From Anaeramoeba flamelloides (taxonomy: Eukaryota > Metamonada > Anaeramoebidae), in NCBI GenBank assembly GCA_027625915.1, contig JANTQA010000042.1:5158001-5222000 (forward strand): 64,000 nucleotides of DNA, in the 5' to 3' direction. Positions within the stretch are counted from its first letter, which is position 1. The number at the start of each line of letters is the position of its first letter. A program made the translations under genes and the position numbers. This document shows positions 24,154-63,300 of this stretch, piece by piece. Below the pieces are notes generated by a model. That model was not told where the DNA came from. It did no database searches and was given only the letters and a program-made list of their open reading frames with translations.

Positions 24154-27100
24154 TTATTTATATAATTTATTTTTTAAATATTTACTTTTTAAATATTGAC
24201 TTTTTAATATGTGAATATATTTTGGCAAAAAATTGTACAAGAATATTAATCCTAATATTGGATATAGAAGGATGAAAAAATACGTTGATTTTAAAAAAGC
24301 AAATAAAGTATTTGTATTATAAATTGAAAATGTTGTTGAAATTGAATTCGTTAAAGGTATCCCAAAAAAGATTATACATAAAACTTTTCCAGCAAGTTCA
24401 AGTTCAAATGGTAATTCTTGATCTTTTTTAACAAAAATCGATCGAATTTTTTTTCTGCAATATGTATCAAAAAAATTAATAAGAATGGAATAAGCAGCAC
24501 TAAAATAATAACACCATCTTTGGCCATGCCAAATACATGTCATTAAAGCAACAGAAACAGTGGCTAAAAATTTTCTTTTCGGGTTTTTGTTACGGAAGAT
24601 ACGATAATACACATTATATTTTAACCAGTGATGCATTAAACGGTTCCAGTAAGTCATATTTTCTCTAGTACATGTTGAAAATTCAGTTTCACGTAGATGA
24701 ACACAATTAAATCGATCCCTATATATTTTTGTTGTGTGAATTTTTTTTTAAAAATTTCCAAATTATAAAAAAAAAAAATAATAAAAGTAATTTTAAAAAA
24801 ATGTTGTGTTTAAAGATTCAAGATAATAGATGATTTGACGATATCTTTTTCAATTCATGATAAAGTTTCAAAAATAGCTATTATCTCTATAAAATCGTAA
24901 TAAAGTTTAAAAAAATGCGATAATCAAAAAATCGCCATTATACATAAAAACGTGATATTCTAGAAAATATCTATAATTTTCAAAAAATCGTGATTTAAAT
25001 GCCAAAATATTGTGATAAAAAAATTAATCACTATACAATAGTTGATGAATTTTAGGACCAAGTTAACAATATTTCTAAAAAGAAAAATTTTTTTGATCAA
25101 AAAACAGATTTTGTAAAAAAACAATTAATTTTTTAAAAAACAACAAAAAAGAAATAAATTAAATCAATGATCATAAAAAACATTAAAATGGAAAATGAAT
25201 GTCAAGCTCACACTAAACCAATTAAGAAAAAAAAAATTAGGAAGTTCTAAACACTAAGCATTTATGCAAAGGTAACAAATGCCCAGGAAAAATATTCGAA
25301 AGAGAAGAAGTTGAAGAGCAAATAAAGTAGATAAAACATAAATCTGACAAATAATTTGACAAAATTTATCTCTACAAAAAAGATCTGATAAAAAGAGATC
25401 CAAAATAAACCATTTTCCAGTTAAATGTGCCCAGTTATGGTAAGTGAATTAAATGTGCTTAAAGATTTTGAATAGATTTTAGAAGAGAAAATTTATTTTG
25501 GAAATTTCAAAAGGATCTATTAAATATTCCCCAAAATACCCGAAAATCAAAAATACTCATAATTTTTTTAACTACTAAAAACACTTTTTGAATAACTTCT
25601 AAGAAATCCTAGTGTCAGTATACTCACTTTAATGTTAAAATTGTAATTTTTTTGAAGAATATATTTTTTTTGAAAAATACAAAATTTGAAAAATTGCAAA
25701 TTTTGGGGAATAGTAATCAAACCATTTTGTGTAAAAGGAATTGGTATCTTAGATATCTACAACATTTTTTATCATTGCTAAATGGCAGTAACGAATGATG
25801 GAAAATGCCTTTGTAAAGAAAATTTCTAATTATGGACCATTACCCATAATTTTGTAATCATGTTTGTAATCCAAAAATAACCATTTAATATCTAATTGTT
25901 AAAATACACACCCATATCCTACTCAAGGTGACCCAAGCAAAACCTTATTTTAACTTCCCATTCCTTAAAAGAAATTGGTTTAACCAAAACATACAAACAC
26001 ACAATACCCTCACATACACATATATAAATACCAAACGTATCCTAGCATACCACATACACTTTTCCTAACAAGTACTAACATACTCAAAAGGTACCAAAAA
26101 AAAATCTTTCCAGAGGAATTTAAGGAAGATAATTCAAAAAAAAATATTTTCTTTTTAAAGGAAAATTGTTATTTTACCATAAACATTTATCTCTTAATAC
26201 TAAAGTTTTTTAAAATTTCTTCAAAAGATGTTTTTTAGTGGTTAAAAAATTTATGAGTATTTTCAATTTTCGGGTATTTTCGAGAATATTTCAAACACAC
26301 AATTTTTGGAGATAAAATTGAAAAATTATTATTTATGAATCAATAATATTTCAATGTTAACACTAGTTCAGTATTTTAAAATTTTTTCAGAGACAAAAAA
26401 AATAAAATTATTACTAAAAAGTTCAGAATATTATAAGGAAAAAATTAAACACCATTTCAAAATTGAAATCATTTTTTCACATTTTGTTTTTTTTTTTCAT
26501 TTTTTTTTTTAACACTAAAAATGCTTTTTCTATTTTTTTTTTTTATGCAAGATCTCGTCACCAGTAAAAAAGTGTTATTCTAAAGTTACTGATTAAGTGA
26601 AAATGATTGTTGAGAAATGATATTGATTTCTATTGGAATTTTATTTTGATCTTCAATTGAAGATCAAAATGAACATTGTTGTTTTTTTTAATCTGGCAAC
26701 GAAGAATTTTTTTTTTTTCAATTTTTAAGAAAATCTATTGATTTATTAGTTTTACTTTATATATGGATTTCAACTATTCTCATGATATGTATTATTCTAA
26801 TTATTTTTTATTTGTTATTCAAAGTTCAATTATATAAAAATAATTGATATTTTTTAAAAAATGCTGGGCACCACTTTGACAGAAACAAAGTTTATATCAA
26901 GAAAATTACTCAAAATTTACAGAAAAATTACAAAGAGTCTTTTAAAATTGGATCAAAAATCCTAACAAGAACAATTAAAAATTTATTTAAGATAGAGATT
27001 TACTTTTCATTCACAAAAAGGGAGATGAAGGAGTAACAACTAATTTATAGACCAATCTCAATAAACAGCGCCCAGGGTGAGAATTTCCTGAAACTTGATT

Positions 27101-30100
27101 AGAAAAATAAAAAGCAATCATTGAAATATAAAAAACCCGCTCAATTTGGATTCAGAAAAAAATTTTTGATAGAAGAATTGCAGAAAAAAACTTTATGTAT
27201 AAATTCAGCAAAGAAAAAAAAAGAATCACAAATCTGTCAACACATTGCCAGTTACAATTGATTTGAGAAATTGTTTTGCCCTAGTACCACATATACAGAT
27301 AGTCAACACAGCCCCAAAATTCATTAAAGATCCCCGAATCAGGTAATTTCTAAAGTAATATTATGGTGGGGATAGAATAGGAGTATATCAGGGATGCCCT
27401 TTATCCTTTAATAATCTTTACATACATAAATCATTATATATTGCAAAAAAAATAAAACCACACCACATGTACCCATCAATGTAAGTTTGAGGCCTAATCT
27501 TAATCATGAAAGGGGAACCAGAACAAAAAACAAAAAAAAAACTCAAAGCAAACATCTCCACAATTATCACTAATTATGACCCCAAGGTAAATGGCGATAA
27601 AACAGAAAAATCAACAAAATTAAAAAAGATCAAATAATAATAATATTGCACAATAAGAAAAAACATATCAAAAAATATCAAAAAAAAGCAAAAAAAAACT
27701 GTTTTCAGAGATATTTATAAACTCTTTTTCAAACAAAAGAGCACATCTCTCAAATCATCAATACTATTGAATTTGATTGTTCATAAGATAATTACTTTTT
27801 GCTGATTTTCATTTTAATTATTCATTTTTTCATATTTTTATTTATGGATATTGAAAGATATTGAACAGTTGGAAAATGAAAAAAACAAGATAAGAAGAAA
27901 CCAATTTGGAAATAATCTGCCAGTATAAAACTGGAAATAGTTTAAGTTTGATTTCGAATAAGATAGATATAGTAGTTAAGAAATATCATTATTAGGTTGA
28001 TGCATGGAACAAAGAAAAGAGAAAATAACGAAAAAAAAACAAACAATTCCACCAAAATACCCAGTTTAATTACGGCTTTATATTGAAAATGAGACTTTAA
28101 AGAACAAAAGTTGGACGTTACAAGAGTTATTGATTAAATGTAAAGGAAAATTTTCTCAATTAACCTTGTTCAAAGTTTTTTATTGTTTTTATAATTTTTT
28201 TTCTTTACAATTTACAAAATGAGATTTCTCATTTCAAATAAAAGTTGCATCACCAATTTTTAAAATACTAAATTTTAATTTTTATTGTTTTGTTTTAATG
28301 ACTTTTAAATCTTCAGTTGAGTGTTTTTTTATGTTTTTAAAGAATTTATTATATTTTAGAATGATACCAAATTTATTTGATTCAATTATGAATAATTCTT
28401 GAAATTTTGTGTTCCCTTTTATTTGAAAAAGAGTTTATTTTCTAAACTTTTTTCTTATCTATTCTTTAAATTTTTTTATTCTTCACTTTTTTAAAATCTT
28501 TATTTTTTTTATCAGTTTCATTTTTTATTTATTCTTTTGTACAGCCTCTTTCTCTAGATTCTCAATTTTATTTTAGAAAAAATAATATAAAGTTTATAAC
28601 ACTTCTAATTACTGTGTTTATCCACTCTTTGGATTAGAAGTTGTGAATTTGGTAACTTCAAAATTCTCTCATTAATAGATTAAGTGTTTCTTATTACACT
28701 TAACAATAAATCTAAAAAAACCCTATTTTTTAGAGACATCGTGTTTACGCTTGTACTGTCAAAAGTTTTTACCAAAAAAAAAAAAATAAAAATAGAAATT
28801 TTAAAGAAGTAAAAAGCAAAGTTATTTGAAACTTCTGTTTTGTTAGAAAAATTATCATTTACCATCTTTTTGATCCATCGTAATTATATCCGTTAAATCC
28901 AAACCCAGCAATAATGTTATGCCCTTCTGAGAATTTAAACGCACCATAATATCGTCTACGGTAAGTAAACCCAAGAATATAGAGTACCCAGAATCTATAA
29001 AATATTGATCTGCTGTCTAATAAATATCCCGAATAGAGATCGAAATTGTATATACTACTAAACTTAAGAAATGCTACTAAATAAAACAAAGATTGTAATA
29101 AACACCACAACCCTTCAATAATTCCATCCTAAAAGAGAAAAAGAATATTTTTTTTTTTTTTTTATTTTTTTTTTTTGCAATATAATTATTAAATAATAAT
29201 ATTTAAATAAAAGTTTGTAAAAGATTTTTCTTGAAGTAATTCGGCTTTATAAGTAATTTTTAAATTATTTGACAAAGTTATTGATTTGTTATAGAATTTT
29301 TTCGATTAAAAAGGTGTTATTTTTGGATAGTTTAAATTTTTGGATAAAATTTAGAATTTGGAATTTATAATTTTTTGGCAAACAAGAGGAATTAAAAACT
29401 AACCCCTATAAATAATAAATATATTAAATTTTTACAAATTATATTTTATTTTTAATAACAGTTCTGGAAAGTTCAAACAAATCTATATTTATTTTTATAA
29501 CTGCGTTAAATAAATTTATTTTTTCATTTTTCCAATTATTTCTTAAAAATTAAATATTAAAAAATAAAACAAATGATTAAATTATTTTCCAGTTAAAGGG
29601 ACCCAGTTGTTATGAGTGAATTGCAGGTGCTTTAAAGAATTTGAATGAATATTAAGAATAAAAATTTATTTTGGAAATTGCAAAATTGAGATCATTTTTT
29701 CTCATTTTGTTTTTTTTTTGATTTTTTTCAACACCAAATTCATTTTTAAATTTTTTTTTTTTATTGCAAGATCTCAAGTCAATTGGTAAGAATGTGTTAT
29801 TTTAAGGTTACTGAAATAGTGAAAATGATTTAGAGAAATGATATTGATTTCTATTAGAATTTTATTTGGATCTTCAATCGAAGATCAAAATAAACATTGT
29901 TGTTTTTCTCAAAAGATCCCTAAGAATTTGAATTTTTCTATTTTTTAGAAAATCTATTCAAGTGTTAGTTTTACTTTATAAAGGATACCAACAATTCTCC
30001 AAGGTGTATTCTTCTGCTTATTTTTTTTTTTGTACTTAATATGTCATTTATAAAAAAATAATTGGTATTTCAAAAAAATCTTGGGACCATTTAACTGAAA

Positions 30101-33100
30101 AAAAGTTGATTTATTTATCTTATCTGTAACATTTAATCCAATTACTTCTTCTTTACTTGGTTTTATTTTAAATTCTTCATGAAAAAACTTGAGTTTTTTA
30201 ATAATTTTTTGAGGAATAAATTACCTTTTATTTCTAAAGAATTCCCAAAATGAATTTAAAAATCCTATTGTAATTGAATTCATCTTATTCTAGTTTTGGT
30301 TCAAGAAAATAGGATATTTATTGAACCTTTTATCTTCAGAAATAAATATTTATTGGATGTATTCGTTTGATATGATCATTATTTATTTCTCATGTATTTG
30401 TAAAAAGTATCATAATTTGGAATCTTACTAGAAATTTTTCTCAAGATTTTCTTTTTCTTTGAGTTGAATATTTTGTAACTGTTTTTTTTTTTTTTTTGAT
30501 TTCAAACCCCCTTTATTTTATTGTTTGTTATAGTATTCTTTGTTTTGGCTTTGTTTGATAAAAATATTTGACAAAATTGAATTTTTAAAACATATTTGCA
30601 AAAATTTTTTTGTAAAATAATAATAAAAAGTAAGGGGGTGAGAAATTCGAGGTTATAAATTGTTTGGGTTCATCCAAATTAAGAAGATAAAGATAAAAAA
30701 TCTTCGAAAATAGACTTTGGTTAGAAAATTTTTTTTTTCATGCTTGATTTCAACAAATTTATCTGGAAAGGTGATCTTTCGCGTTTTGTCTTCAAAAAGA
30801 AAAGAATTATTTCAAATAAACTCCTTCGATGGTATATTTTTTTGGTTTATTCTAGGATTAATTTCAAACATCGCCATAAAAACACTTTTCTAGATCGAAA
30901 ATAGAATTTAATAAAACCAAAAATTTAATGTTCATAAAAATCGAAAAATTAAACATTCTATTCTGGTTTACGTTGGTTTCGTTTTCTTTTTGTAAAAAGA
31001 GCAGTGAACAGTGTCTTGGTTTCAAAGTTCCCATATCCCCGTTGCATTTTAAAAAATCTTTTTTCAATAAGGTTGTCGCAATTAACATTTTTAAAAATTT
31101 TAAAATGTAATTACTTTTTTAAATAAAAAAATAACATTTTAAAAAAAACAAAAAAAAAAAAAAAAAACCTTGTTTGTTAGTGATTCACCCTCAACTGGAA
31201 CTTCGCCATCGAACATTTTTTTTGTAATAAAATCTTTATAAGGCTTAAAATAAATAATTGGGCACATTGAAATTGCTCAAAAATACTAAACATATGAAAA
31301 ATGTTCTGTTAAAGAAGGCAATTCTCGAATTAATAATTCACTTTCATGAGATAATAAATCATTTTTATTTTTTTTTACCATCATCCAAATTCCACCCAAG
31401 ACTAATAAGTTTTAAGACTTCAAACATTAATGGTCCACTCATATTTAAAACATGGAGGTAACAATATTGTTTAATAATTTTTAAATGGCTTTAATTTTGT
31501 TGTTTATGAAAAGAAAAAAATTTAAAAAAAAAAAAGTAGGAGATAAAATATAAATTTAGAAATGTTTTTCATATGAAATAACTGAAAATAATTCTCAAAA
31601 AAAAAATTAAATTCAACTTGACTAATAAAGAAGAATGTATAGATAACAAAATTATTCCCCAAAACCCATTTTTTTCATTTTTTTTCTTTGTTTTTTTTTT
31701 TTTTTGGAAAGTTTTTGATAAATATAATTATTGTAAACTCTTTTTTCAAACAAAGGGGTACACCTCTCAAATCTACAATATTATTTAATTCGATTGTGAA
31801 TAAGATAATTACTTATTGGTGATTTTCATTTTAATTATTCATTTTTTTATATTTTTAATTTTTTTATTTATGGATATTGAACAGTTGGAAAATGAAAAAA
31901 ACAAGATAAGAAGAAATCAATTTGGATTTAATCTACCAGTGTATAAAAATGAAAACAGTTTAAGTTTGATTTAAAATGAGCTAGATACAGTAATTAAAAA
32001 ATACCATTATTGGATTGATTTATGGAAAAAGAAAAAAGAAAATATTGAAAAAAACAATTTCAACAAAATACCCAGATTAATTGCAGCTTTATATTGAAAA
32101 TGGGAATTTAAAGAACAAAAGTTTGATGTGTAAAGAGTTATCAATAAAATTGTAAAGAACTGTTTCTCAATTCACCTTACTCAACTATTTTTATTGATTT
32201 TATAATTTTTTTTTCCCCAACAATTTACAAAACGAGATTTCTCATTTCAAATGAAAGGGCACATCAATTTTTAAAATATTGAATTTTAATTTTTATTGTT
32301 TTGTTTTAATGGGTTTTAAAGATTCAGCTGAGTGTTTTTTTTTATATTTTAAAGTGTTTTTTGGATTTTAGAATGATACTAAAACTAAATTGATTCAATT
32401 ATGGATAATCTTAAAAATTTTCATTTCCCTTTTATTTGAAAAAGAGTTTACTTATAAGACAAATCATTGATATATTTTGTTAAACTTGATATTGTTATAT
32501 TCAAATAAAATAATAAATGGTTTTTTTTTTTGTTCGCTTTGAAAATAAATAAACGAAAATTCAAGACATTTTGAACATCTTTCATGAGTCCAGTGCTGAT
32601 TCGAGATGTTTTATTTCTTTCTTTTCTTTTCTTTTCTTATTTTTCTGGATGATTTTTTTTAATTTAAAACATGACTGGAATAGAAAATAACATAGAAATT
32701 TTTTCAGTTGAAAATTTAAACACCATTAAATTGCGATTTGAAAATTAAAAGGGATTTCTTTCCTGGTATTCCAATTTTAAATTAGAAAATTTTTTCACAG
32801 GACATTAAATGTGTTTATTTCTAATCAGTTCCCAAGATAAAAATTTATAATTTCGTCCTCTCATTTCTTTTTTGCTTATATTTCAATGATAAATGATGAA
32901 CAATTCTCAGTTCACCTTTCTTTTTTTTTTTTTTTAGAAAATTTTATTTTAAGGTAGTAGGTACCATAAAGTCAAAACTTTCACTTTTTAATATTTTTAA
33001 AGAAGATTAGAAAACAACATTTTTTACTTTGGTGGTGGTTTTGTTTGCTTTTTAGTATTTAAAGTACTTGTTGAGAAACAATTTATTAATTTTAATTTCA

Positions 33101-37418: not shown

Positions 37419-37879
37419 AAATAAAAATAAAATAATATATTTAGGAATTATAATCCCTGAAAACGAAAAAAATTATCTTTTCTAAAGTATAAGCTAAATT
37501 TCAAAAAATAGGGGCAGATTGTTAATCATATAAAAGATTATTATTTTTTTTTTTTTGAATAATAATGTTTTTTACTAAAGTGTTTAGAGATAATAACCAA
37601 TATAGATTAATAAATAAAAATATAGTTTAATCATTTTATTTTTTTGAAAGACAAACGAAAAAAGAAATAAATAAGAAAAATTAATTTTGCCCCTAATTTT
37701 GAAATTTTGCTTAAGCTTTGTTATTATGGTTCATCATTGTTTGATTTGAATGTTAAAATGGGCAATATATGTTGTTTAAAAATGAATTTTATTGAAAAAT
37801 ATCTCCACAATTTCAAATTTGAGAAATAAAAAGAAATTTTCAGAAATAATCGTTTAATTTCTAAAATTAAATAAAATCT

Positions 37880-39075
37880 AAGAGCTGTTTTCCCGTATTC
37901 AAAAGATTAGAGTAAAATCTTTAATTTAACACAATTCTTTTAAATTCTGGAAAACATTATGACAATTTTCTTGTGGTTTTCTATTAAATTTCAAACATCC
38001 ATTGATTTTCGTTAGGTTTTTTTGAGTTTTCTATTTGTTTGGAAAATTAATAGATTTTCGTTAGGTTTTTTTTAATTTTTGATTTGAACAGAAAAATTAT
38101 TAAAATTTTCTGTTTATTTCAAAAAGTAAAAAAAACTTAGAACACTTCACAAAGAAAATAGAAAACCTCAAAAAAACTAGAGCACTTCATAAATAAACAG
38201 AAAATACAAGAAAACCTAACGGCTTCACAAATAAAATAGAAAAGTAACGAAAATCTATTGATTTTCCAAAAACAGAAAACCACAATAAAAGCTTGGCAAT
38301 TGACGGACACTTAGCTTTTTTTTTTTTTTAATATTTGAAATTAACCGAAAATTTGTTTAATATACTGTTTAAAAAATTAAGGAAAAAATCGGAAGTGTTA
38401 GCGGGGTACCGTCAACTGTCTAGGTTTTCCCGAATTCGAACGAATAGAGAAAAATCAGAGATTTTAATTAATTCTTTTAAATATTGGAAAAGCTAAAGAT
38501 TGTTTTTTTTTACTTTTTGAAATAAACTGAAAATCTATTGATTTTCCAAATAAACAGAAAACTCTGGAAAACCTAACGAAAAGTGTCCGTATAGTATCAT
38601 AGACTGTCTAGGTTTTCTTGAGGTTTTCTCTTTTGGTTATTAAATCTATCGATTTTACGAATAAATAGAAAATTCAAGAAAACCTAACGGCGCTTTTCCA
38701 AAATTCAAAAGAATTGAGAAAAAGCATAGATTTTACTCAATTCTTTTAAATTCTGGAAAAGATAACGGTGTATTTTTTTTTTTTACTTTTTGAAATAAAT
38801 CAAAAATTTCAAAAATTTTCTGTTCATTTCAAAAATTCAAAAAAACCCAACGGAAGTGTCCATCAAGTCACTAGCTTTTATTGTGGTTTTCTGTTTTATT
38901 AGTAAAATCCATCGACTTTCCTAATAAACAGAAAACTCAAAAAAAAACCTAGAATACTTCACAAATAAATATAAAACCTCAAGAAAACCTAAAGGCAGTT
39001 TTCCAGGATTCAAAAGAATTGAGAAAAATGTTTGATTTAACTCTATTCTTTTAAATTCTAGAAAACCTACCGAAA
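37880..39075. repeat. Modular hairpin array 1
   Basis: An array of self-complementary units in both orientations. Type I units have arms TTTTCCAGAATTCAAAAGAA and their complement (37887-37955, 38425-38500, about 38690-38770, 39000-39065). Type II arms contain TACTTTTTGAAATAAA and its complement. Type III arms contain GGTTTTCTGTTTTATTAGTA and its complement. Units begin near CTAGGTTTT or CTAGCTTTT and end near AAAACCTAACGG. GTCCGTCAAGTG-type linkers occur between some, and reversed at 38296-38315. From 38425 the order is I, II, III, I, II, III, then I. There is no coding potential. Related to 56395-57590. Origin unknown. Confidence 0.8.
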
Positions 39076-39370
39076 ATCAAAAAAAAATTATTTTTTTCCA
39101 ATTTAAAAGAACAAATAATTCTTTAATAGTCAAAATAATTGATTCTCAATTTGAAAGATATTTATTAAATTTAAAATTGCTTGAAAATATATTTCTGACC
39201 TCTTAACTATGAAAAAAAAAAAATTCAAATTTTTTACTATTAAATTTAAAAAAAATCTTAATAGATCCTATAAAATTGGATTTTCCAGCTTAAATGCTAA
39301 ATATCTTGAAAAATAATTTTTTTTAAAAAATCTTTTGTTAAATGATAGTATTTATTTTAAGTGGAGATAA
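39076..39370 (+). repeat. Conserved right flank of hairpin array 1
   Basis: Matches 57600-57865 collinearly: AATAATTCTTTAATAGTCAA, ATAATTG, TTTGAAAG, CTTAACTAT, AATTGGATTTTCCA, AATATCTT. So the array and this non-palindromic flank were duplicated as one unit. Confidence 0.7.
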
Positions 39371-40467
39371 CAAAAAGTTTTCACTTGAAAAATTATTAAA
39401 TATTTAATTATTTTTTCATAAAAATTATTACATAAAAAGGAAACCGAAAGTTAATTTTTCGAAAAGATAAACCAAATAATTTCGATTTGAAAACTCAATC
39501 TTTTGTGGGTTTTCAAATTGTTTACCTATAGATTAAAAGAAACAGGGAATACAAGAGGAATCAAAAGTTAGAAAAAATTGTTAGTTATTTAATTCCAAAA
39601 TTGTTCGATGTTTGCAACTAAAAGATTTGTTTTCTCAACAAAAAATTGAACCAAGGGGTTTATAGGAAGACTGATTTTTTTTTGAACTGTTCAAATGATA
39701 CCAAATATGCTAAGTTAAAATTGATCTAAATCGTATATGTTAAGATATCAAAATATTGTGAATTTTTTTTCAAAACCCTTTTTCGAAAGATCCATAGCAT
39801 TTTTCAAAAGTTGGTGATGCAAAATGATTTTGCAAGAATCAAGAGATTTCAGAAATCAAAATTTAAATCAGAAAGATCTCAAATAGCCCTTAGTGAGGTT
39901 ACAGTAAGCTGACACTTGAACAATTGGATGTTTAAAAAAATTAATTTGGTAATTCCAAGAATTTACTTCACTCGAAAATATAAAGAAATGAACAACAAGA
40001 GTTGTTTTGAACTAAAATTCCAAAACAGAAACCCAGGTAAATCTTTTTTTATTTTCAGAAAAACTTACGGTAGATTTTTAATAATTTTTTGTTTGTCGTA
40101 TGATTTTTTTGGTTGGGGTAAAAGGAAATTTCTTTCTAAAAAAATTTTTGGTACTGTTGTGTTTTAAAAGAAATTATTTCAACTACTAGTGAAAATGAAG
40201 AAATTATTCGATACCAACAAATATTAACAAAAAAAAATTAAAAAAAAGATTCAATGTTTCCATAAAAATCTCAGTATTAAGTGACATAAATTCGAAAATA
40301 AACAAGATAAGAAAAACTACACCACACATAGAGTGAAGAATTGAGATCAAAGAAATACTTAAAGCAACAAAATGCAAAATATTCTCATTTTTTCTAACTT
40401 ACATAAAAAACAAAATATTGCTTTTTAAAAAAAATAATTTACTTTTTTTAAAACAAAAACAAATCCA
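39371..40467. other. Upstream region of the eIF4B-like gene
   Basis: AT-rich, no exon recognised. The 83-codon frame at 39916-40167 is open but has no domain, and its base composition equals that of the flanks. A promoter presumably lies in the last few hundred bases; no motif is defensible. Confidence 0.4.
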
Positions 40468-42624
40468 ATGTCTAAAAAAAGAAAAGGTAAGAAGATTGCA
40501 CTAAACGATTTTCTTGATGAAAGCGAATCCGATCCTGAAGATTATTTGGTTGCCGAAAATTATGGCGAAGAAAAGAGACCAGTGGAAAGACAAAGTCAAA
40601 ACTGGCGTGAAGGATCTCGTAACCAAGGCGGTAATAACAACGAATACTCCGGCCGTGGTGGCGGAAGGGGCAATAGGTATGGGTACAACAATAGGTACGA
40701 CAATAGAAACCGTTTTGAAGGTGGAAGAGGCAGAGGCCGAGGCAGAGAAAGGTATGACGAACAAGATAATAGAGGAAGAGGCCGAGGATGGGGAAGAGGC
40801 AGAGGAAGGTTTAATGATAAGAGCGAAGTTTCTGACAATTGGAGAAATTCTGGCAAGACAGGAGATACAATCTTGACCCGAAAATCAAATCGAAACCAAG
40901 ATTCTTATAACAGAAGAAATTATGACAGAAGACCAAGATATCGAAGGAGAAGTTATTCAAGAAGCAGATCCAGAAGTAGATCCAGAAGTAGATCCGGAAG
41001 CAGAAGCCCAATTAGATCAAGAAGCCCAATTAGAAGAAGAAGAAGAAGCCTAAGTAGAAGTAGATCAAGAAGCCTAAGTAGAAGTAGAAGCAGAAGTAGA
41101 TCAAGAAGTCCTTTAAACAGAAGCAGAAGCCCAATTAGATCAAGAAGCCCAATTAGAAGAAGAAGTTCAATTGGAAGAACAAGAAGTCCAATAAGCAGAA
41201 GTAGAAGCCCAAGTAGAAGTCCATTACGTAGAAGTAGATCAAGAAGTCTAAGTAGAAGTAGAAGCAGAAGTAGATCAAGAACCCCAATTAGAAGTAGAAG
41301 TGGAAGTCCTAAAAAAGCAGATGAAAACGAAACACAAAAAGATGAAAACGAAGAAAATAATGTTAAAAGAAGTCCAAGTAGAAGTAGAAGTAGAAGTAGA
41401 AGTAGAAGTAGAAGTAGAAGTAGAAGTAGAAGCCGAAGCCGAAGCCTAAGCCCAAGCCCAATTAGATCAAGAAGCTATAGTAGAAGTAGAAGCTAAGTAG
41501 AAGTAGAAGTAGAAGTAGAAGTAGAAGTAGAAGTAGAAGTAGAAGTAGAAGTAGATCAAGATCAAGATCACCAAATTATCGAAGAAATGATTCTAGAAAC
41601 AGACGAAAATTTGAAAAAATTGAAATTCCAGACAAAGCACCATGGAAAATTTTGATAACGATTAAAAATACACAAGTTAAACAGCAAGAAATCAAAGAAT
41701 TTATTGAAGATGATAATGACATCAAAATTAAAAATTTCCGTGAAATGAGACCACTTCTCTATTGTGTAGAATTATTTGAAAGGGAAGATATGGTTAAAAT
41801 GGTAGATAAAAACAAAACAAGATTTTATGGTGGAATGATGTATATTAGACCATTTATTGATTATCCTACATATTCACAAGGACGAGGCAGAGGACGAGGT
41901 AGAGGCAGGGGCAGGGGCAGATATGATGAACGAGATAATAGGGGAAGAGGAAGAGGAAGGGGAAGGGGAAGAGGAAGAGGAAGATATGGAAATGATGATT
42001 ACAATAAATATGAAGACAAAAGAAATTTCAGAAAAAATGAAGAAGAAGAAGAAAAAGAAAAGCCAGTTGAACGGAAAAAAATTGTTATCCTAGATAAAAA
42101 AGAAACCACTAATAAAACTGATAATCGCTCAAACATTTTTGGACAAGGAAGGGCAAGAGATCATGCCAAATTACCAAAAAAAAAAATCGTACCAAAAAAA
42201 AAAACAACAAAGAAAAAACAAAATACTAAAAATAAAAAAAAGAAAAAAAAAATGAAAAACCAAAAAACGGAAAAAAAAAAACAACAAAAAAAAATCTGAT
42301 AATGTGTTTGATGTTTTGACAAACAAAAAAAAGAAAAAGAAAACAAAGAAAAAGCCAAAAACAACCACAAAAACAACAAATGTTTGGGAGCAAAGAAAAA
42401 AACAAAAAGAACAAAAAGAAAAGAAAAAAACCCAACAAAAGAAAACCCAACAAAAGAAAACCCAACAAAAGAAAACCCAACAAAAGAAAACCCAACAAAA
42501 GAAAACCCAACAAAAGAAAACCCAACAAAAGAAAACCCAACAAAAGAAAACCCAACAAAAGAAAACCCAACAAAAGAAACCACAACAACAAAAAAAACAA
42601 AATACTAAAAATAAAAAAAAATAA
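40468..42624 (+). CDS. eIF4B-like SR/RGG/RRM RNA-binding protein
   Basis: The N terminus KRKGKKIALNDFLDE matches the eIF4B start (KGKxISLxDFL). Then an RGG-rich stretch (residues ~50-120), a long SR-repeat region (to ~340), an RRM-like fold (PWKILITIKNTQVK to GGMMYIRPFIDYP), a second RGG block and SNIFGQGRARD, like the eIF4B IFG-A-P-D motif. This combination fits a translation-initiation cofactor stimulating eIF4A helicase; the SR expansion is unusual. The frame breaks at 41494: AGAAGCTAAG where sister repeats read AGAAGCCTAAG, so one C seems missing. The SR repeat and RRM then continue in the next frame to 42299. A second 1-nt break in the A-run before 42297 would continue as SDNVFDVLTNK and NVWEQRKK into a 15-bp repeat tract, ending near 42624. 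Both breaks are in homopolymers, so base-calling error is likely; an intron is not apparent. The C terminus is uncertain. Confidence 0.65.
42431..42580 (+). repeat. Ten tandem 15-bp repeats (CCCAACAAAAGAAAA)
   Basis: Ten head-to-tail units, nine identical and the last with one change. Because 15 is a multiple of 3 and no unit frame holds a stop, all three plus-strand frames stay open (KTQQK, NKRKP or PTKEN repeats), as do minus frames (GFSFV or LLLGF). The frames therefore give no evidence for which one is used. Confidence 0.95.
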
Positions 42625-54300: not shown

Positions 54301-55217
54301 GAAAATAAAAATGGAAAGTAAAAGACATTTAACAAAGAACCAAATTAATCTTCAGGAATAATTTATAATATTATTTTCACATATAATGAACAATTAAAAT
54401 TTCTATCTTCTTAATTATCAAAATATATTTAGTTGTTGTGGATATCTCAACTATTATGAAATTATTCCACAAAATTTAAAAATAACATACTAAAATTTTT
54501 TTTAGCCTAAAGTACCCAATATTTTTTTTCAATTATCAAGTATTTTTAATAAATCACCTTTGAAAAACAAAGAAGAAATTAGTAAAATAATACATATCAA
54601 AGAAAATAGTTGATATCCTTATGAATAAAACAAATAAAAAAATATATTTTCTTAAAAAATTGAAAAACACATAATTCTTAGTGCCATATTGAGGAAAACA
54701 ACAAGCTTCATCTTGATCGCCATATTGAAGATCCAAAAAAAATTCCAATAGAAATAAATATAATTTCACCATAATCATTTTTACTTTATCAGCAACACTA
54801 GAATAAGACGTTTTTTACCAAGTTACTATCGATCTTGCAATACAAAAAAAATTGTAATGAATTATGTTAACTCATTCATTTCAAAAACTAAAACATAAAT
54901 CTAACATAAAAATTAAATTTCTTATATCTAAAGGTGTACTTTTTTCAAAATTAAGCCCTGTTACCTGAAGCAAAATCGAAAAAAATCCAAAAATAAATGA
55001 AAGGCACAAACAAAAATAAAATATAAAAAAATAAAATCAAGTAATAGAATGATAATATTATTATTCATATCGTTCTTCTAATTATTACTTTAACCATATT
55101 TTTTAAGTAATTTTTTTTTTTTTTTTTAATGATATAAATTGAAAAATTGTTCAATAAAAAAATGATTATTCTCGCTTTTCTTCCAATTATAATTAAGACA
55201 AAAATTATCATAATTGG
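51318..55217. other. Intergenic region between the Rab21 and NAP1 genes
   Basis: Mostly AT-rich with no RNA gene or long TIR. A palindrome ACTGATATTTCAAATGAAATATCAG lies at about 52409-52433. One possible exon is listed separately (52640-52798). Low-complexity frames at 54554-54778 are not convincing. The first ~150 bp are the probable Rab21 promoter side. Confidence 0.4.
52640..52798 (+). CDS. Possible internal exon, unidentified
   Basis: Preceded by AACAAATTAG (acceptor-like) and followed by GTATTA (donor-like), the open stretch reads SYSQESDKYLNHFWNKKLIL, then YREDEINLFQNIFTKNYF and FILEQKHNFK. It has reasonable protein-like composition, no start codon and no recognised domain. Neighbouring exons were not found. 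Confidence 0.25.
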
Positions 55218-58200
55218 TTAATTTTTGTACTCAACATTTGATGGGAGTATATATTCAGAATAAGAATAAGAAGAACTTGATCCAGATTTCGAATCGGATT
55301 CGGAATCCGAATATGAGGAATTAACCGATGATGAGGAATTACTTAAAACGTCTTCAAGAGAAAGAGCCTCTCCGGAGAAATAGAGAACTGCCATTGGGAC
55401 TAAGGTTTCCTTGAATAAATTGCCCAATTGGAAGTCTGCCTCCAACTGTGCTTGTATTTGCAACATTTTTTCTTCGTCTTCATTTTGAGTAATTTTCAGA
55501 CTGGTAAAAAAATGGAAAAAGCTTTTGCACGGGATGTATTTGCGATACGTTTTACACCTTCCCGTCGAAATAATTTTTTTGGTAATTTCTTCGATGTTGA
55601 CAGTCAACGCTTGATCCTTTTTCCATTGTATTTTGGTCCCTTCGGTCTTTTCAAGAAAGAGATTGTTTGTTATTCCAATTTCTTCAGACAGATAATAAGT
55701 TTTTGTTAAAATTGTATTGGTAAAATAAGGGTTTTCATCAAAAATAAAATGAAGATGATAACCAAGATTTTCTTTAAACAATTCAACTTGTATATCTTTC
55801 AAATATTGAATCCCATATTCATCCCTTTCGCTGATCATATTTCGAGTTGATGGATGATGTAATAACACTTTTAACCAAAACAATGGAATCCCTTGCACGC
55901 TTTCTTGGGTTTCTTCGCCTTTGATAATTTTACATCGTTTGTCAAAAAGATATTTCATCTTTTGCGAATATTCATATTGTAATTTTCTTATCTTTTGCTG
56001 TAACACATTTTCAATTAAAGTCGTTTTAAATTGGATTTTTCGAAGCTCTTCGATTCGGTGTAAGACAATAGTTGGTAGGCCAGATAAACATGTATTCGAA
56101 ATTAAATCTTGAACATTGATCTATATTAAAACGTAATAACAAGAATAACAAGAATAATAAGAATAGATAGAGATTGATAGAGACAGATTGAGATTAAGTT
56201 TGATATCAAAAAAATAAATAAATAAAAAAAAGTAATCCGTAAGCAGAATTTATCAATGAATTGAAATCTAGTCTTTTGAAATAATAAAAAATAAAATAAA
56301 AAAAAAAATTGGAAAATTATCTCTAGTGGATAAAAGACACATTTTTGAGCCTTTAAAACAATTCCTAATAATAAAAATTTAGGAAATATAGAAGTGCCAC
56401 CAAGTGCCGCCAAGTGTTGTAGAGTGCCGTCAAGTGCCTAGGTTTTCCAGAATTCAAAAGAATAGAGAAAAATCTTTGATTTTACACAATTCTTTTAAAT
56501 TTTATAAAAACCTAACCGTAATTTTTTTTAATTTTTGAAAAAAAAAAGAAAATTTATTTAATTTTCGTTATATTTCAAAAAGTTAAAAAAAACCTAACGG
56601 AAGTGTCCGTCAAGTGCCTAGCTTCTCTTGAGGTTTTCTATTTTATTTCTGAAGTGTTCTAGGTTTTTTTGAGGTTTTCTATTTTATTTCTGAAGTGTTC
56701 TAGGTTTTTTTGAGGTTTTCTATTTTATTTCGAAAATCTATTGATTTTCTAAATAAATAGAAAACTCAAAAAAACCTAACGAAAATCTATTGATTTTCTA
56801 AATAAAATAGAAAACCCAAGAAAACCCAGGCGATTTTGTAGTATTCAAAAGAATAGAAAATCTCAAAAAAGCCTAGAATACTTCACAAATAAAACAGAAA
56901 ACCTCAAAAAAAAACTAACGAAAACCTATCGATTTTCCAAATAAACAGAAAACTCAAGAAAAGCTAACGGTGGTTTTCCAGAATTCAAAAGAATTGAGAA
57001 AAATCATAGAGATTTTACTCTATTCTTTTAAATTCTGGAAAAGCTAACGGCGTTTTTTTTTGCTTTTTGAAATAAACAGAAAATTTCAAAAATTTTCTGT
57101 TTATTACAAAAATCAAAAAAAACCGAATGAAGTGTCCGTCAAGTGTCCTAGGTTTTCCAGAATTCAAAAGAATAGAGTAAACACATCTAGATTTTACTCG
57201 ATTATTTTAAATTCTGGAAAACCTAACGGAAAGTGTCCTAGGTTTTTTTTTACTTTTTGGAATAAACCGAAAATTTCTTTAAATTTTCTGTTAATTCCAA
57301 AAATTAAAAAAAACCTAACGAAAGTGTCCGTCAAGTGCCTAGCTTTTCTTGAGGTTTTCTGTTTTATTAGTAAAATCTATCGGTTTTCCTAATAAACAGA
57401 AAACTCAAGAAAAGCTAACGGCGGTTTTCCAGAATTTAAAATAATCGAGTAAAATCTAGATGTGTTTACTCTATTCTTTTAAATTCTGGAAAACCTAACG
57501 TTAAGTGTCCTAGGTTTTTTTTACTTTTTGAAATAAACCGAAAATTTATTTAAATTTTCGGTTCATTTCAAAAATTAAAAAAAACCTAATGGAAAAAACA
57601 AAAAAAAAATTAATTTTTCAATTTAAATCAGGAAATAATTCTTTAATAGTCAAAATAATTGGTTCCCCATTTGAAAGCTATTTATCAAATTTAAAATGCT
57701 TTTAAAAGATAATTAAAATAACTTCTTAACTATCAAGCAAAAATTTTTTTGAATTTAAATTTGAAAAAAATCTTTGTGAAAAATTGGATTTTCCAATTTA
57801 AATTGCAAAATATCTTCAAAAATAATTTTTGTTCAAAGATCTCTTATTAACCAGTAATATTTGTTATAAGTCAAGTTATTAAAAAGTGGAAAATTCTCAA
57901 ATGTTAATTTTTTATTGAAAAATTTTTTTCTCCAAACCAAGGTATTTTTAAGGACTTGAAAAGTGGGGTTTTCAGTAGAACAAATAATAAAAATTCCAAC
58001 AAATACCATTTTTTGCAAAATATAATTTATTTTAGTCTGTTGATTAAAGATAGTATTCACTTGAACCAATCTAAAAGGATAGAATTTGTGGTGCATATCC
58101 AGAATTCGTTTGGGGCGTGCATCCTGAAGTTGAAACAATATATCTTGATAAAGCCCTTTTATAATATTGAAAACCGATTGTATGTCTTTGGTTTTAAATT

Positions 58201-59277
58201 AGGGCTGAAAGTGCAAAACTTTTCATAAATCATTCACAAAAAAATTTGAAAATCTGATCTTATTTTAAAATTCAAATGTCAGTAGCTGTTGGGCACTATT
58301 TTTAAGTATAAACTATTTTCAAATTCTTCTGCATTTAAAAACACATTGAAATTAAAGATTAAATTTTGCGTGATTCGCTCCCCAAAATTAAAAAAAATTG
58401 AAAACAAATCCATTCTAAATTCAAAACAAAATTGCTGTTGAGAAAAGTTTTTAATAGTTAGAAAAATTCTTTCTGAATATTTTTCAACAAAGAAAACATA
58501 CCTCACAACTGAAAAAGAATACTCAGTATTTTGACGAGATTTTAATTGTTTTCTGAATTACTTAAATTTGAATCATCTCAATATTCAATTTTTTGGGAAA
58601 AAAAATTTTCCTTTGAAAAAAACTTGAAAAAGAAGGTTTAAAGATTTCGAACCAATTTCTTGTTAATTTTGAAAAGTCCGCTTCAAAATCAGTTCTTCAA
58701 CCTAAAATAACAGAAAGAAACGATTGTGAAATCCTCGAACACAAAAAAACTTTAGAAAAATTTAAAAAGTAAAAAGGAAACCTATCAAGCTGTAAAAATG
58801 ACAAACAAAAAAAAAAAAAAAAAAATAGATTACATCATTTGTGTTTTTCAATTCATATTCATCTCGATCTTGGTCATCTTCAGACTCTTCGTCTGAGTAC
58901 TCTTCTCTTAAAATAATTTGTTTGTTTTCATTTGAAATTTTTCTTGTTTTATTGTTGTTTAAAACATTTTCTTGGTTCTGTTTTTCGATTTTAGTACAGT
59001 TTCCCGTTTCAATGAATTCTTTTTTTTTTTTTTTTATACCCTTAAGTGGTGTTGACAATTTCCTGAGCATTTTCTTCGATTTGCGTTTTCTTAAGGAGTT
59101 TTTAACATTTAAACGTCCTTGTTGATCTAGTTTTGTTGGGGACTTCATTAGTTCGCCACTCGATTGCTTTTTTTTAAGATCTTTGAGTGTTTTTTTAAAT
59201 GTGTTATTTTTGCTCCTGATTTGTTGTTTTGTCTCAGGTTGAAGATTAAAGGTTAGTCGTTTTTTTTTTTGAGACAT
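55218..59277 (-). CDS. NAP1-family histone chaperone (two exons)
   Basis: Exon 1 59277-58834 (148 codons) and exon 2 56120-55218 (300 codons plus stop) join in phase zero via GTAATC and ATATAG to 448 aa. Exon 1 is basic then acidic (EEYSDEESEDDQDRDEYE). Exon 2 carries the NAP fold: SGLPTIVLHRIEELRKIQ (dimerisation helix), YLFDKRCKIIKGEE, GIPLFWLKVLLHH, DEYGIQYLKDIQVEL, HFIFDENPYFTNTILTKTYY, KIQWKKDQALT, SFFHFFTSL and DFQLGNLFKETLVPMAVLYF, then a Ser/Asp-rich tail. NAP1 proteins escort H2A-H2B and assemble nucleosomes. Length fits the family. The long acidic C-terminal tail of yeast NAP1 is replaced by a serine-rich one. Exon 1 assignment rests on phase, acidic character and position. The 2713-nt intron contains hairpin array 2. 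Confidence 0.88.
56395..57590. repeat. Modular hairpin array 2 (in the NAP1 intron)
   Basis: The clearest stretch is 57150-57224 (type I), 57240-57316 (type II), 57341-57416 (type III), about 57423-57496 (type I) and 57512-57587 (type II). Each unit is 75-77 nt and folds on itself, closed by AGG/CCT or AGC/GCT. Linkers are AACGG-like plus AAGTGTCCGTCAAGTGCCT or shorter forms. The beginning (56395-56440) has AGTGCC-x-CCA tandem motifs. The part 56620-56900 repeats GAAGTGTTCTAGGTTTTTTT and GAGGTTTTCTATTTTATTTC, whose complements follow at 56745-56920. No open frame is meaningful here. Confidence 0.85.
57600..57865 (+). repeat. Conserved right flank of hairpin array 2
   Basis: Collinear with 39076-39370 and in the same position and orientation relative to its array. 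Non-coding. Matching ends near 57870 and 39370. Confidence 0.7.
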
Positions 59278-59788
59278 TTTTGTTCCTTGTTGTTTTCGGA
59301 AAAATTAGAAATACTAAACAAAATTGTGTGAAAAAAGAACACAAAAAATGATTACATTTGATATTACTAACTGTAAGGCTGAACAACCAAGAAAAAGGCC
59401 TTTAGTCAAATCGGATAAATAAATAATCTCTTGAAATGTGGAATTTTTGATGGTGAGTGTAAAATAAATTGAGGATTTTATTCATGTCCAAAAGCTCGGA
59501 AACTTTTTATTTTGTGTATTTCTAAAATGAGAAAGCTGGCTTTTGAGGGGGCTTTCAGTATAACTTGACTTTGATTCGTAATCTTTAAACCTTCTTTTTC
59601 ATGTTTGGTCTTTTTTTCTTATATACTTTTTTTGCTTACAATTTGACCTTAATTGTTCCATTTCTTTAACAAATCAGGCCCCAAGGGTGTTTTTCAAATA
59701 TTAATATTATTTTTTGAGGACTATTTTATAAGGTGACTTGATCTTGAAAAAGGTTTTTTGTTTAGCATACCTGATGTATGTTTGTTAA
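59278..59788. other. Upstream region of the NAP1 gene
   Basis: Promoter-side sequence of the minus-strand gene starting at 59277, moderately less AT-rich than average, without coding frames. It ends at the TTAA target of the next element. Confidence 0.4.
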
Positions 59789-60349
59789 GGTTTACAATCC
59801 CTGAAATTTTTCAATAAGATTATCTTGTGTAGGCTGTAGTGAGTTGCTAATTTGGAACTTAGCTGATGAATCTTGTATTTGGTATGGATTTTAATAGTGG
59901 TTCAAAATGGCAATTTTTGACAATTTATTTTTTTTTTTTCTTCCAAAATCCGTATTGAAGAGTATAAGATTAATTGGCTGGAACTTAAGTTATAAAAAAA
60001 TGTGGTTTGTAGGTTTTTGATTGAAATTTTTAATTAAGTTTGGTTTTGTTGGGAGCTTTTTAAAAAAAGTTATTTTTTCATTTAGTTAATTGACACAAAA
60101 GTAAATCAAGATTCTTTTCTACAACCCAAAATTCAAAATTTATTCTTGAGCACCTATCGATCTATCAATCTTACACTCTTCAAATCGGATTTTGGAAGAA
60201 AAAAAAAAAATAAATTGTCAAAAATTGCCATTTTGAACCACTATTAAAATCCATACCAAATACAAGATTCATCAGCTTAGTTCCAAATTAGCAACTCACT
60301 ACACCCTATACAAGATAATCTATTTTTCAAATTTCAGGGATTGTAATCC
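59789..60349. mobile_element. Complete 561-bp TTAA-flanked MITE (GGTTTACAATCCC)
   Basis: TTAA at 59785-59788 and 60350-60353. The termini read GGTTTACAATCCCTGAAA and, in reverse complement, GGATTACAATCCCTGAAA. The inverted arms extend about 200 bp and are nearly identical through AGCTGATGAATCTTGTATTT and TTCAAAATGGCAATTTTTGA, so this is the youngest family member. The ~150-bp loop is non-coding. Older copies are at 17290 and 43027, and a fragment is possible at 37440. Confidence 0.9.
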
Positions 60350-60557
60350 TTAAGTAATTACCAAAAAAAAAAATGAGTTTATTTTTAATCGTCTAAAAAT
60401 CAGATGTAAACTCTGATAAAAAAGAACCTATTTCCAAGATTTTGGTAGTAGTACGTGTACTTAAATAGAATATGTTTAAATCTATTGTGTTTCATTTCTA
60501 GAAAACTATGTGGTAAGGAAAAAGGATTTTTTATTAAAAACATAAGAAAAACCTTAA

Positions 60558-62905: not shown

Positions 62906-63069
62906 TATAATAAAAAACCACCAATATTTATTTATCACCCAAAAATATTTAAGTTATCCATCAAGTTCAATACGTTTAAAATTTAGTTCATTTACAAACT
63001 GCTTAAATAGATATTACTATGTTATGAAAATATATTCAAATAAATTTTTTCCTCTATGTTTTTAATATA

Positions 63070-63300
63070 AGCAAAAGGACATTATTGAAAAATTTGATCA
63101 TTTTTTATGGGTATGTCCTTCCTATGAAAAAGAATAGATTAATATTTTATAACAAATTAAAAGAATTAAATTTTAAAGAAATAATTTTAAACTGTGACAG
63201 TTTGAGACTATTTTCATTAATCAATAATTGTAAAATCTATTATTTTACACTTAAATTTCTGAAAGGAAATTTAAGTATAAGGGTATCTAGAGTGTAATTT
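63070..63300 (+). mobile_element. Probable LINE 3'-end coding relic
   Basis: Plus-strand reading near 63080-63130 gives DIIEKFDHFLWVCPSYEKE before a stop. This resembles the C-terminal E-x-x-x-H-x-L-x-x-C-P motif found at the end of many LINE ORF2 proteins. The following 160 bp are open in another frame. No poly-A tail or target duplication could be fixed. It is short and broken, so this is tentative. Confidence 0.35.

Follow-up and report, generated by a model that had tools for sequence, protein, structure and literature searches.

The window considered here is a stretch of 64,000 nucleotides of the Anaeramoeba flamelloides genome, in which an array of short hairpin-forming modules occupies intron 1 of a NAP1 gene. 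The gene lies on the minus strand, with coding blocks at 59277-58831 and 56120-55221 that were located by a tblastn search with the annotated A. flamelloides protein P0001, and the part at 55218-56006 encodes a NAP protein with 262 amino acids identical to P0001. An earlier note made from the sequence had correctly placed the array in this intron and had given it the limits 56395-57590; the feature extends to 57930, as the arm of a DNA transposon that we term MITE-A. The features of the locus, and a second array in the window, are as follows.

55221-59277, minus strand: NAP1 host gene (tblastn of P0001; Pfam NAP, E 9.8e-56)
56316-56394, plus strand: LINE end (C-terminal end of its coding sequence), flanking the array on the left (match to LINE locus L080)
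56395-56438, plus strand: linker of ~10-nt repeats (AGTGCCRCCA / AGTGCCGTCA), by direct reading
56439-56514, plus strand: module I (83.5% to reference I)
56522-56597, plus strand: module II (~83-85%, either strand)
56618-56824, plus strand: module III within III within III, a three-deep nest (nested-unit analysis)
56847-56966, plus strand: more III-like part-modules, some inverted
56972-57046, plus strand: module I
57052-57127, plus strand: module II
57149-57225, plus strand: module I, reference (folding z -10.6)
57239-57318, plus strand: module II, reference (folding z -7.4)
57339-57417, plus strand: module III, reference (folding z -10.4)
57423-57497, minus strand: module I, inverted (98.7% to the reverse complement of 57149-57225; folding z -9.4)
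57511-57589, plus strand: module II (folding z -10.5)
57594-57930, plus strand: MITE-A right arm (79.2% to MITE-A copy L053, E 1.7e-81; 33-copy alignment)
37825-39433, plus strand: second window array, with a MITE-A right arm at 39073-39433

The observation of an array was confirmed as a whole, since the five units originally named are all present and fold strongly (z -7.4 to -10.6), with none of 200 dinucleotide shuffles equalling the folding of any of them. They are, as had been described, discrete hairpin units with common ends and differing stems. The order I-II-III-I-II and the related linkers were also found at 57149-57589, but the second module I is inverted, matching the first at 98.7% as a reverse complement and at 85.9% in direct orientation. 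Similarly, the simple row of units applies to the five named modules but not to 56618-56824, where copies of III are nested three deep.

Other repeats occur in the window. The region 59785-60353 is a near-palindrome of ~570 bp, 79.7% identical to its own reverse complement and with 84-87% relatives in L019, L020 and L041, and it constitutes a further dispersed palindromic repeat. Another repeat is found at 54493-54867, 26535-26871 and 29753-30107, with relatives in L012, L025 and L031, and the region 40468-42300 encodes an SR-rich protein containing RSRSRS and RGRGRG in long, imperfect repeats.

MITE-A, which provides the right side of the array, is an abundant non-autonomous DNA transposon with the ends CACTAGTATG...CATGATCGTG. 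The left arm of ~355 bp begins with CACTAGTATG, and the right arm of ~340 bp begins directly after the array and terminates in ...CATGATCGTG. Its terminal inverted repeats are imperfect and extend over 17 bp (left, CACTAGTATGAAAAAAT; right, reversed, CACGATCATGAAAAAAT), with agreement at 14 of the 17 positions; a search on the left for the inverted repeat of the right end, allowing up to 5 mismatches, did not recover it as such, and the left end was defined by comparing copies with one another. A 2-bp target duplication borders 19 of 20 copies with exact ends and one of 3 bp borders 1 of the 20, and matching outside dinucleotides were present for 19 of 29 query-selected copies, compared with 20.7% when the pairs were unmatched. 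Longer duplications, of 3-9 bp, were rejected, being at control level or almost absent.

Genome-wide, the right end occurs 169 times exactly and the left end 495 times with at most 1 mismatch, and the reversed patterns not at all; a search with the array region 57150-57590 itself gave 5,348 first-look candidates, 40 of which were scored with 272 matches. Satellite DNA was rejected as a description, the copies being dispersed and bordered by transposon arms. Among 50 array clusters classified by their flanks, 43 are flanked on one or both sides by a MITE-A arm and seven are LINE-class only or unmatched, where the label LINE is a loose one because LINE-class loci also contain other repeats. An autonomous form of MITE-A was sought by eye among 100 of the 169 right ends and 100 of the 495 left ends, and no exact-end pair 2-20 kb apart was seen. 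The PF02992 profile (CACTA transposase) gave no matches and was likewise silent on the controls, with a match in 0 of 14 genomes.

The 20 end-paired copies of MITE-A differ in their module content. Three carry no module (L051, L052 and L053; 709-712 bp), eight a single one (seven II and one I; 799-808 bp), two carry both I and II (887 and 897 bp) and six contain at least three full or partial modules, ranging up to about a dozen. In the remaining copy, L067, a module is accompanied by a right arm that is rearranged, and exact ends and a 2-bp duplication are combined with foreign sequence in that arm. The inserts are located at one exact nucleotide, between ATT and GGAAAATC, and the three module-free copies have perfect ends and duplications. 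In a tree based on the arms of 53 copies, 10 of which have little besides the left arm, module-free L051 and L053 are placed beside a five-module copy with support of 100/98, and L052 falls within a clade supported at 98/98. Since the module-free copies thus occur at two separate places inside array-bearing clades, as the starred branches require, the filled or empty state has changed at least twice, with whole rows coming or going without a scar, and precise loss fits these copies better than primary absence.

The modules are not confined to MITE-A. An 18-mer from the right foot of module I has 1,069 occurrences genome-wide and, of 100 contexts listed and sorted by eye, about 10 were MITE-A arms and about 32 belonged to three further types that recur, termed kinds B, C and D, the others being mostly the next module or a linker. 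Fifteen loci of these three kinds were examined, and several carry pieces of reverse transcriptase. A LINE piece from L082 matches the Pfam reverse transcriptase domain with 38.9 bits, above the cut-off of 29.6, and those from L080 (26.7 bits) and L073 (21.5 bits) fall below it; relatives bear names that include "reverse transcriptase". At the kind C loci no reverse transcriptase piece was found, and their final bases resemble the LINE 3' end. These loci, L074-L077, share ~700 bp of common non-reverse-transcriptase sequence together with a row of modules and the LINE-like 3' end, and they may represent a non-autonomous element dependent on the LINE.

The same modules as in MITE-A interrupt the coding sequence of the LINE at four points.

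LINE site 1 (module inverted): filled in L080 and L082; empty in L081 and L020
LINE site 2: filled in L048, L069 and L080-L083; empty in L073 and L020
LINE site 3: filled in L069, L080 and L082; empty in L081 and L073
LINE site 4, close to the 3' end: filled in L048, L069, L073, L079 and L082; empty in L080 and L081

That coding sequence is interrupted follows from the annotated A. flamelloides proteins P0009-P0011, which continue without a break through site 2 (...NKQQKYLKW...) and likewise through site 3 (...HFLWDCP...). Locus L048, in which sites 2 and 4 are filled, came from a blindly chosen stretch. In the tree for site 2, the clade L048/L069/L073 (100/100) includes both filled and empty loci, as do the rows outside it, and the state of this site has changed at least twice, either by repeated insertion at the same nucleotide or by repeated clean loss. 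A decayed relative of the LINE is present in the window at 62907-63291 and is module-free at the equivalents of sites 2 and 3. LINE-derived sequence was also observed at the start of two annotated proteins, P0013 ("beclin-1") and P0014 (named for a kinase domain), which are either gene models fused to a LINE or real captures.

The array in the NAP1 intron is flanked by both types of host, on the left by LINE sequence up to site 4 and on the right by MITE-A from its canonical junction. The LINE similarity is short, with 56316-56385 matching positions 2137-2204 of L080 at 81.4% (E 1.5e-12), and the translation of 56317-56367, LSLVDKRHIFEPLKQFL against LALVDNKLIFESLIRFL, is weak by itself (E 0.21); arrays at LINE site 4 are preceded by linkers related to that at 56395-56438. 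No recognisable left end of MITE-A was found in the window copy, and the last ~9 bases of its right end, ATGATCGTG in other copies, are unrecognisable. Judged from these flanks, the window copy looks like a recombinant of LINE-borne and MITE-borne rows, and of the cases with mixed flanks it is the only one relied on here. It is also possible that a MITE-A inserted into a LINE-borne row and that its left side was later deleted.

Each module is a unit of ~90 bp consisting of AGTGTCCTAGG, a palindrome of 75-80 nt and CCTAAC, with variants. The palindrome termini, TAGGTTTT...AAAACCTA, are terminal inverted repeats by structure, whereas there is no pairing between AGTGTCC and CCTAAC at the outer ends. 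A general rotation I-II-III, as had been proposed, was not borne out: it accounts for 18 of 45 adjacencies in the 30 end-chosen MITE-A copies, without enrichment (shuffle mean 15.5, maximum 25), and for 11 of 40 adjacencies at the 15 loci of the LINE class (mean 14.6, maximum 24). The value of 103 out of 147 (mean 53.0, maximum 70) was obtained for 27 copies retrieved by array similarity and selected, unlike the end-chosen copies, for their likeness to the window array itself. The picture that the earlier note had set against its own, of order-less fragments of one large element, is right in that the order is not fixed, but the modules are whole and occur in more than one host.

Modules within an array are about as similar as those at different loci (identities of 0.826 versus 0.833 for I, 0.813 versus 0.816 for II and 0.844 versus 0.868 for III). 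By pairwise divergence, the modules evolve out of step with the MITE-A arms; those of L056 and L059 are 0% different where the arms differ by 6.3%, and in L050 and L058 the module differs by 12.5% and the arms by only 2.3%. Module trees, which are based on 75-80 columns and poorly resolved, show MITE and LINE host labels intermixed for module I (19 changes versus a shuffled mean of 20.7) and somewhat clustered for module II (19 versus ~24.5, with 0-1 of 500 shuffles as low).

In 19 rows, some of them overlapping, module III is split by another unit, and all of these rows may trace to a few events. The CCTAAC end of the inner unit lies against GAAAATC, which is also the right junction of MITE-A (GGAAAATC), and the inner unit is found in either arm of III and hence in either orientation. 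Whether in MITE-A, at one of the four LINE sites or in the III loops, the CCTAAC end adjoins GA or GG in most copies, the exceptions being CA at site 3 of L082 and TG at site 4 of L073. The left end is variable (AGTGTCC, AAGTGCC or TCGTGTCGTC) and is preceded by 0 to 3 bases, possibly a duplication. A 2-bp duplication, GG/GG or GA/GA, would account for site 4 of the L082 LINE and for the unit nested in L062; neither form fits LINE site 2 (left ...ACAG, right GAC...), and only a few MITE-A copies agree with one.

The explanation that we consider moderately probable is that the modules are palindromic mini-elements, or hairpin cassettes, lodged in other transposons, which inserted as mobile units and were then altered by slippage, template switching and recombination. 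Separate mobile units would have inserted with the CCTAAC end facing GA or GG, and the host transposons would then have spread them through the genome as hitch-hikers. Once in place, the hairpins and their shared ends could cause polymerase slippage and template switching, by which whole modules would be lost, duplicated, inverted or hybridised, and recombination of LINE-borne with MITE-borne rows would generate chimeras of which the window copy may be an example. The sites that are not homologous to one another number six, namely the III loop, four positions in the LINE and the one in MITE-A, and they imply at least six original insertions. No module was found in low-copy DNA among the loci studied, which were chosen via arrays or MITE ends except for L047 and L048. 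A stronger form, in which nuclear hairpin cassettes parasitise transposons by site-specific insertion (CCTAAC against GR) into DNA and LINE hosts and into each other, their rows serving as hubs for the recombinational swapping of arms from one transposon class to another, is put forward tentatively and as rather less than an even chance. The interpretation in the earlier note is partly supported, its suggestions of a foldback-transposon internal array and a recombination substrate being near to what was found.

Immobile central tandem repeats, which would have arisen once in MITE-A or the LINE and only expanded, contracted or recombined without ever moving alone, are an unlikely alternative. 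Deletion could explain the array differences between near-identical MITE-A copies, as in the one-module clade, a few local duplicates exist (II in L028 at 100%, I in L021 at 97.3%) and TRF reports a 179-bp period at 56972-57348. This leaves unexplained why the same units stand at four LINE places, one MITE-A place and the module loops, and mobile mini-elements are preferred because slippage bound to a host cannot give six sites. Also set against tandem repeats is that modules within arrays are no more alike than those between loci, a pattern that old inherited arrays would likewise give. It is very unlikely that the rows serve a CACTA-type element as subterminal repeats to which its transposase binds, maintained for transposition and with incidental hairpins: the CAC...GTG ends and 2-bp duplications of MITE-A recall CACTA elements, and the ~10-nt motif AGTGCCGTCA is repeated in the linkers, but L051, L052 and L053 show that the row is not needed, and LINEs bear module rows too.

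A multi-hairpin RNA selected for its fold, such as a small-RNA precursor, had been suggested at the outset and we now regard it as highly improbable. The stems are stable, and compensatory double changes exceed column shuffles in module II (173 versus a mean of 66.7, maximum 83) and module III (29 versus 13.3, maximum 20) but not in module I (41 versus 37.2, maximum 54). As proof of selection this excess was rejected, since the shuffles leave the effects of relatedness and subfamilies in the comparison, and the history of subfamilies, or template switching that corrects imperfect palindromes, would be enough to produce it in II and III without selection on RNA. Moreover, module order and number are free, both orientations are present (of 76 same-array pairs with a clear orientation, 20 are inverted relative to each other), and the 44 Rfam matches at E ≤ 0.1 include none above the gathering score. 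It is scarcely credible that the modules are introner-like elements spliced from the LINE message with CCTAAC as branch point. The LINE sites do show CTAAC and then AG (CCTAACGACAAAAG), which resembles metamonad 3' splice signals; however, neither the MITE-A site nor the inverted LINE site 1 could sensibly be read as an intron, the intron of NAP1 terminates in TTTTAATATAG, and copying would strip introns from a spliced retrotransposon.

MITEs with short internal repeats and organelle genomes with mobile hairpins are already known. If palindromic mini-elements are the correct explanation, they would constitute a second level of parasitism, with interchangeable palindromes common to a DNA transposon and a LINE, nested and located at the same nucleotides in diverged copies, and they would provide a concrete nuclear example in which hairpins drive both the chimerism of transposons and changes in the copy number of whole units. 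As two strains of A. flamelloides have been sequenced, module gains and losses could be dated. Searching the literature for Anaeramoeba together with "transposable element" found nothing, and the term-matched passages of PMC11550330 contain nothing on these repeats.

Among known systems, MITE-A resembles non-autonomous EnSpm/CACTA elements in its left CACTA start, CAC...GTG ends, short inverted repeats and 2-bp duplication, which falls within their range of 2-3 bp, and differs in having a right end of CACGATC instead of CACTA. Central tandem repeats of transposons that seed satellites, as in PMC9659126, likewise vary in unit number at one internal point of a MITE. The 20 MITE-A copies show the same pattern; however, the modules extend beyond one host family to the four LINE sites, and they comprise three unrelated palindromes that are free in order, mutually nested and shared with the LINE. 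Short, apparently mobile, non-coding palindromes also include sponge RHE (PMC2800124), a yeast mitochondrial mobile DNA family (PMC4478555) and those of Volvox (PMC2670323). Unlike these organelle hairpins, the modules are nuclear, lie within other transposons and in rows, and have fixed end motifs. The foldback element Galileo reportedly has long, internally repetitive inverted repeats. Foldback elements of this kind (PMC2775673) share internal repeats, inverted units and recombination with the arrays. They differ in that MITE-A has inverted repeats of ~17 bp and bears its hairpins as internal units. Finally, bacterial REP/BIME elements and integron cassettes form rows of hairpins with conserved feet that are added to at a fixed point, and the modules, although eukaryotic, resemble them in this.
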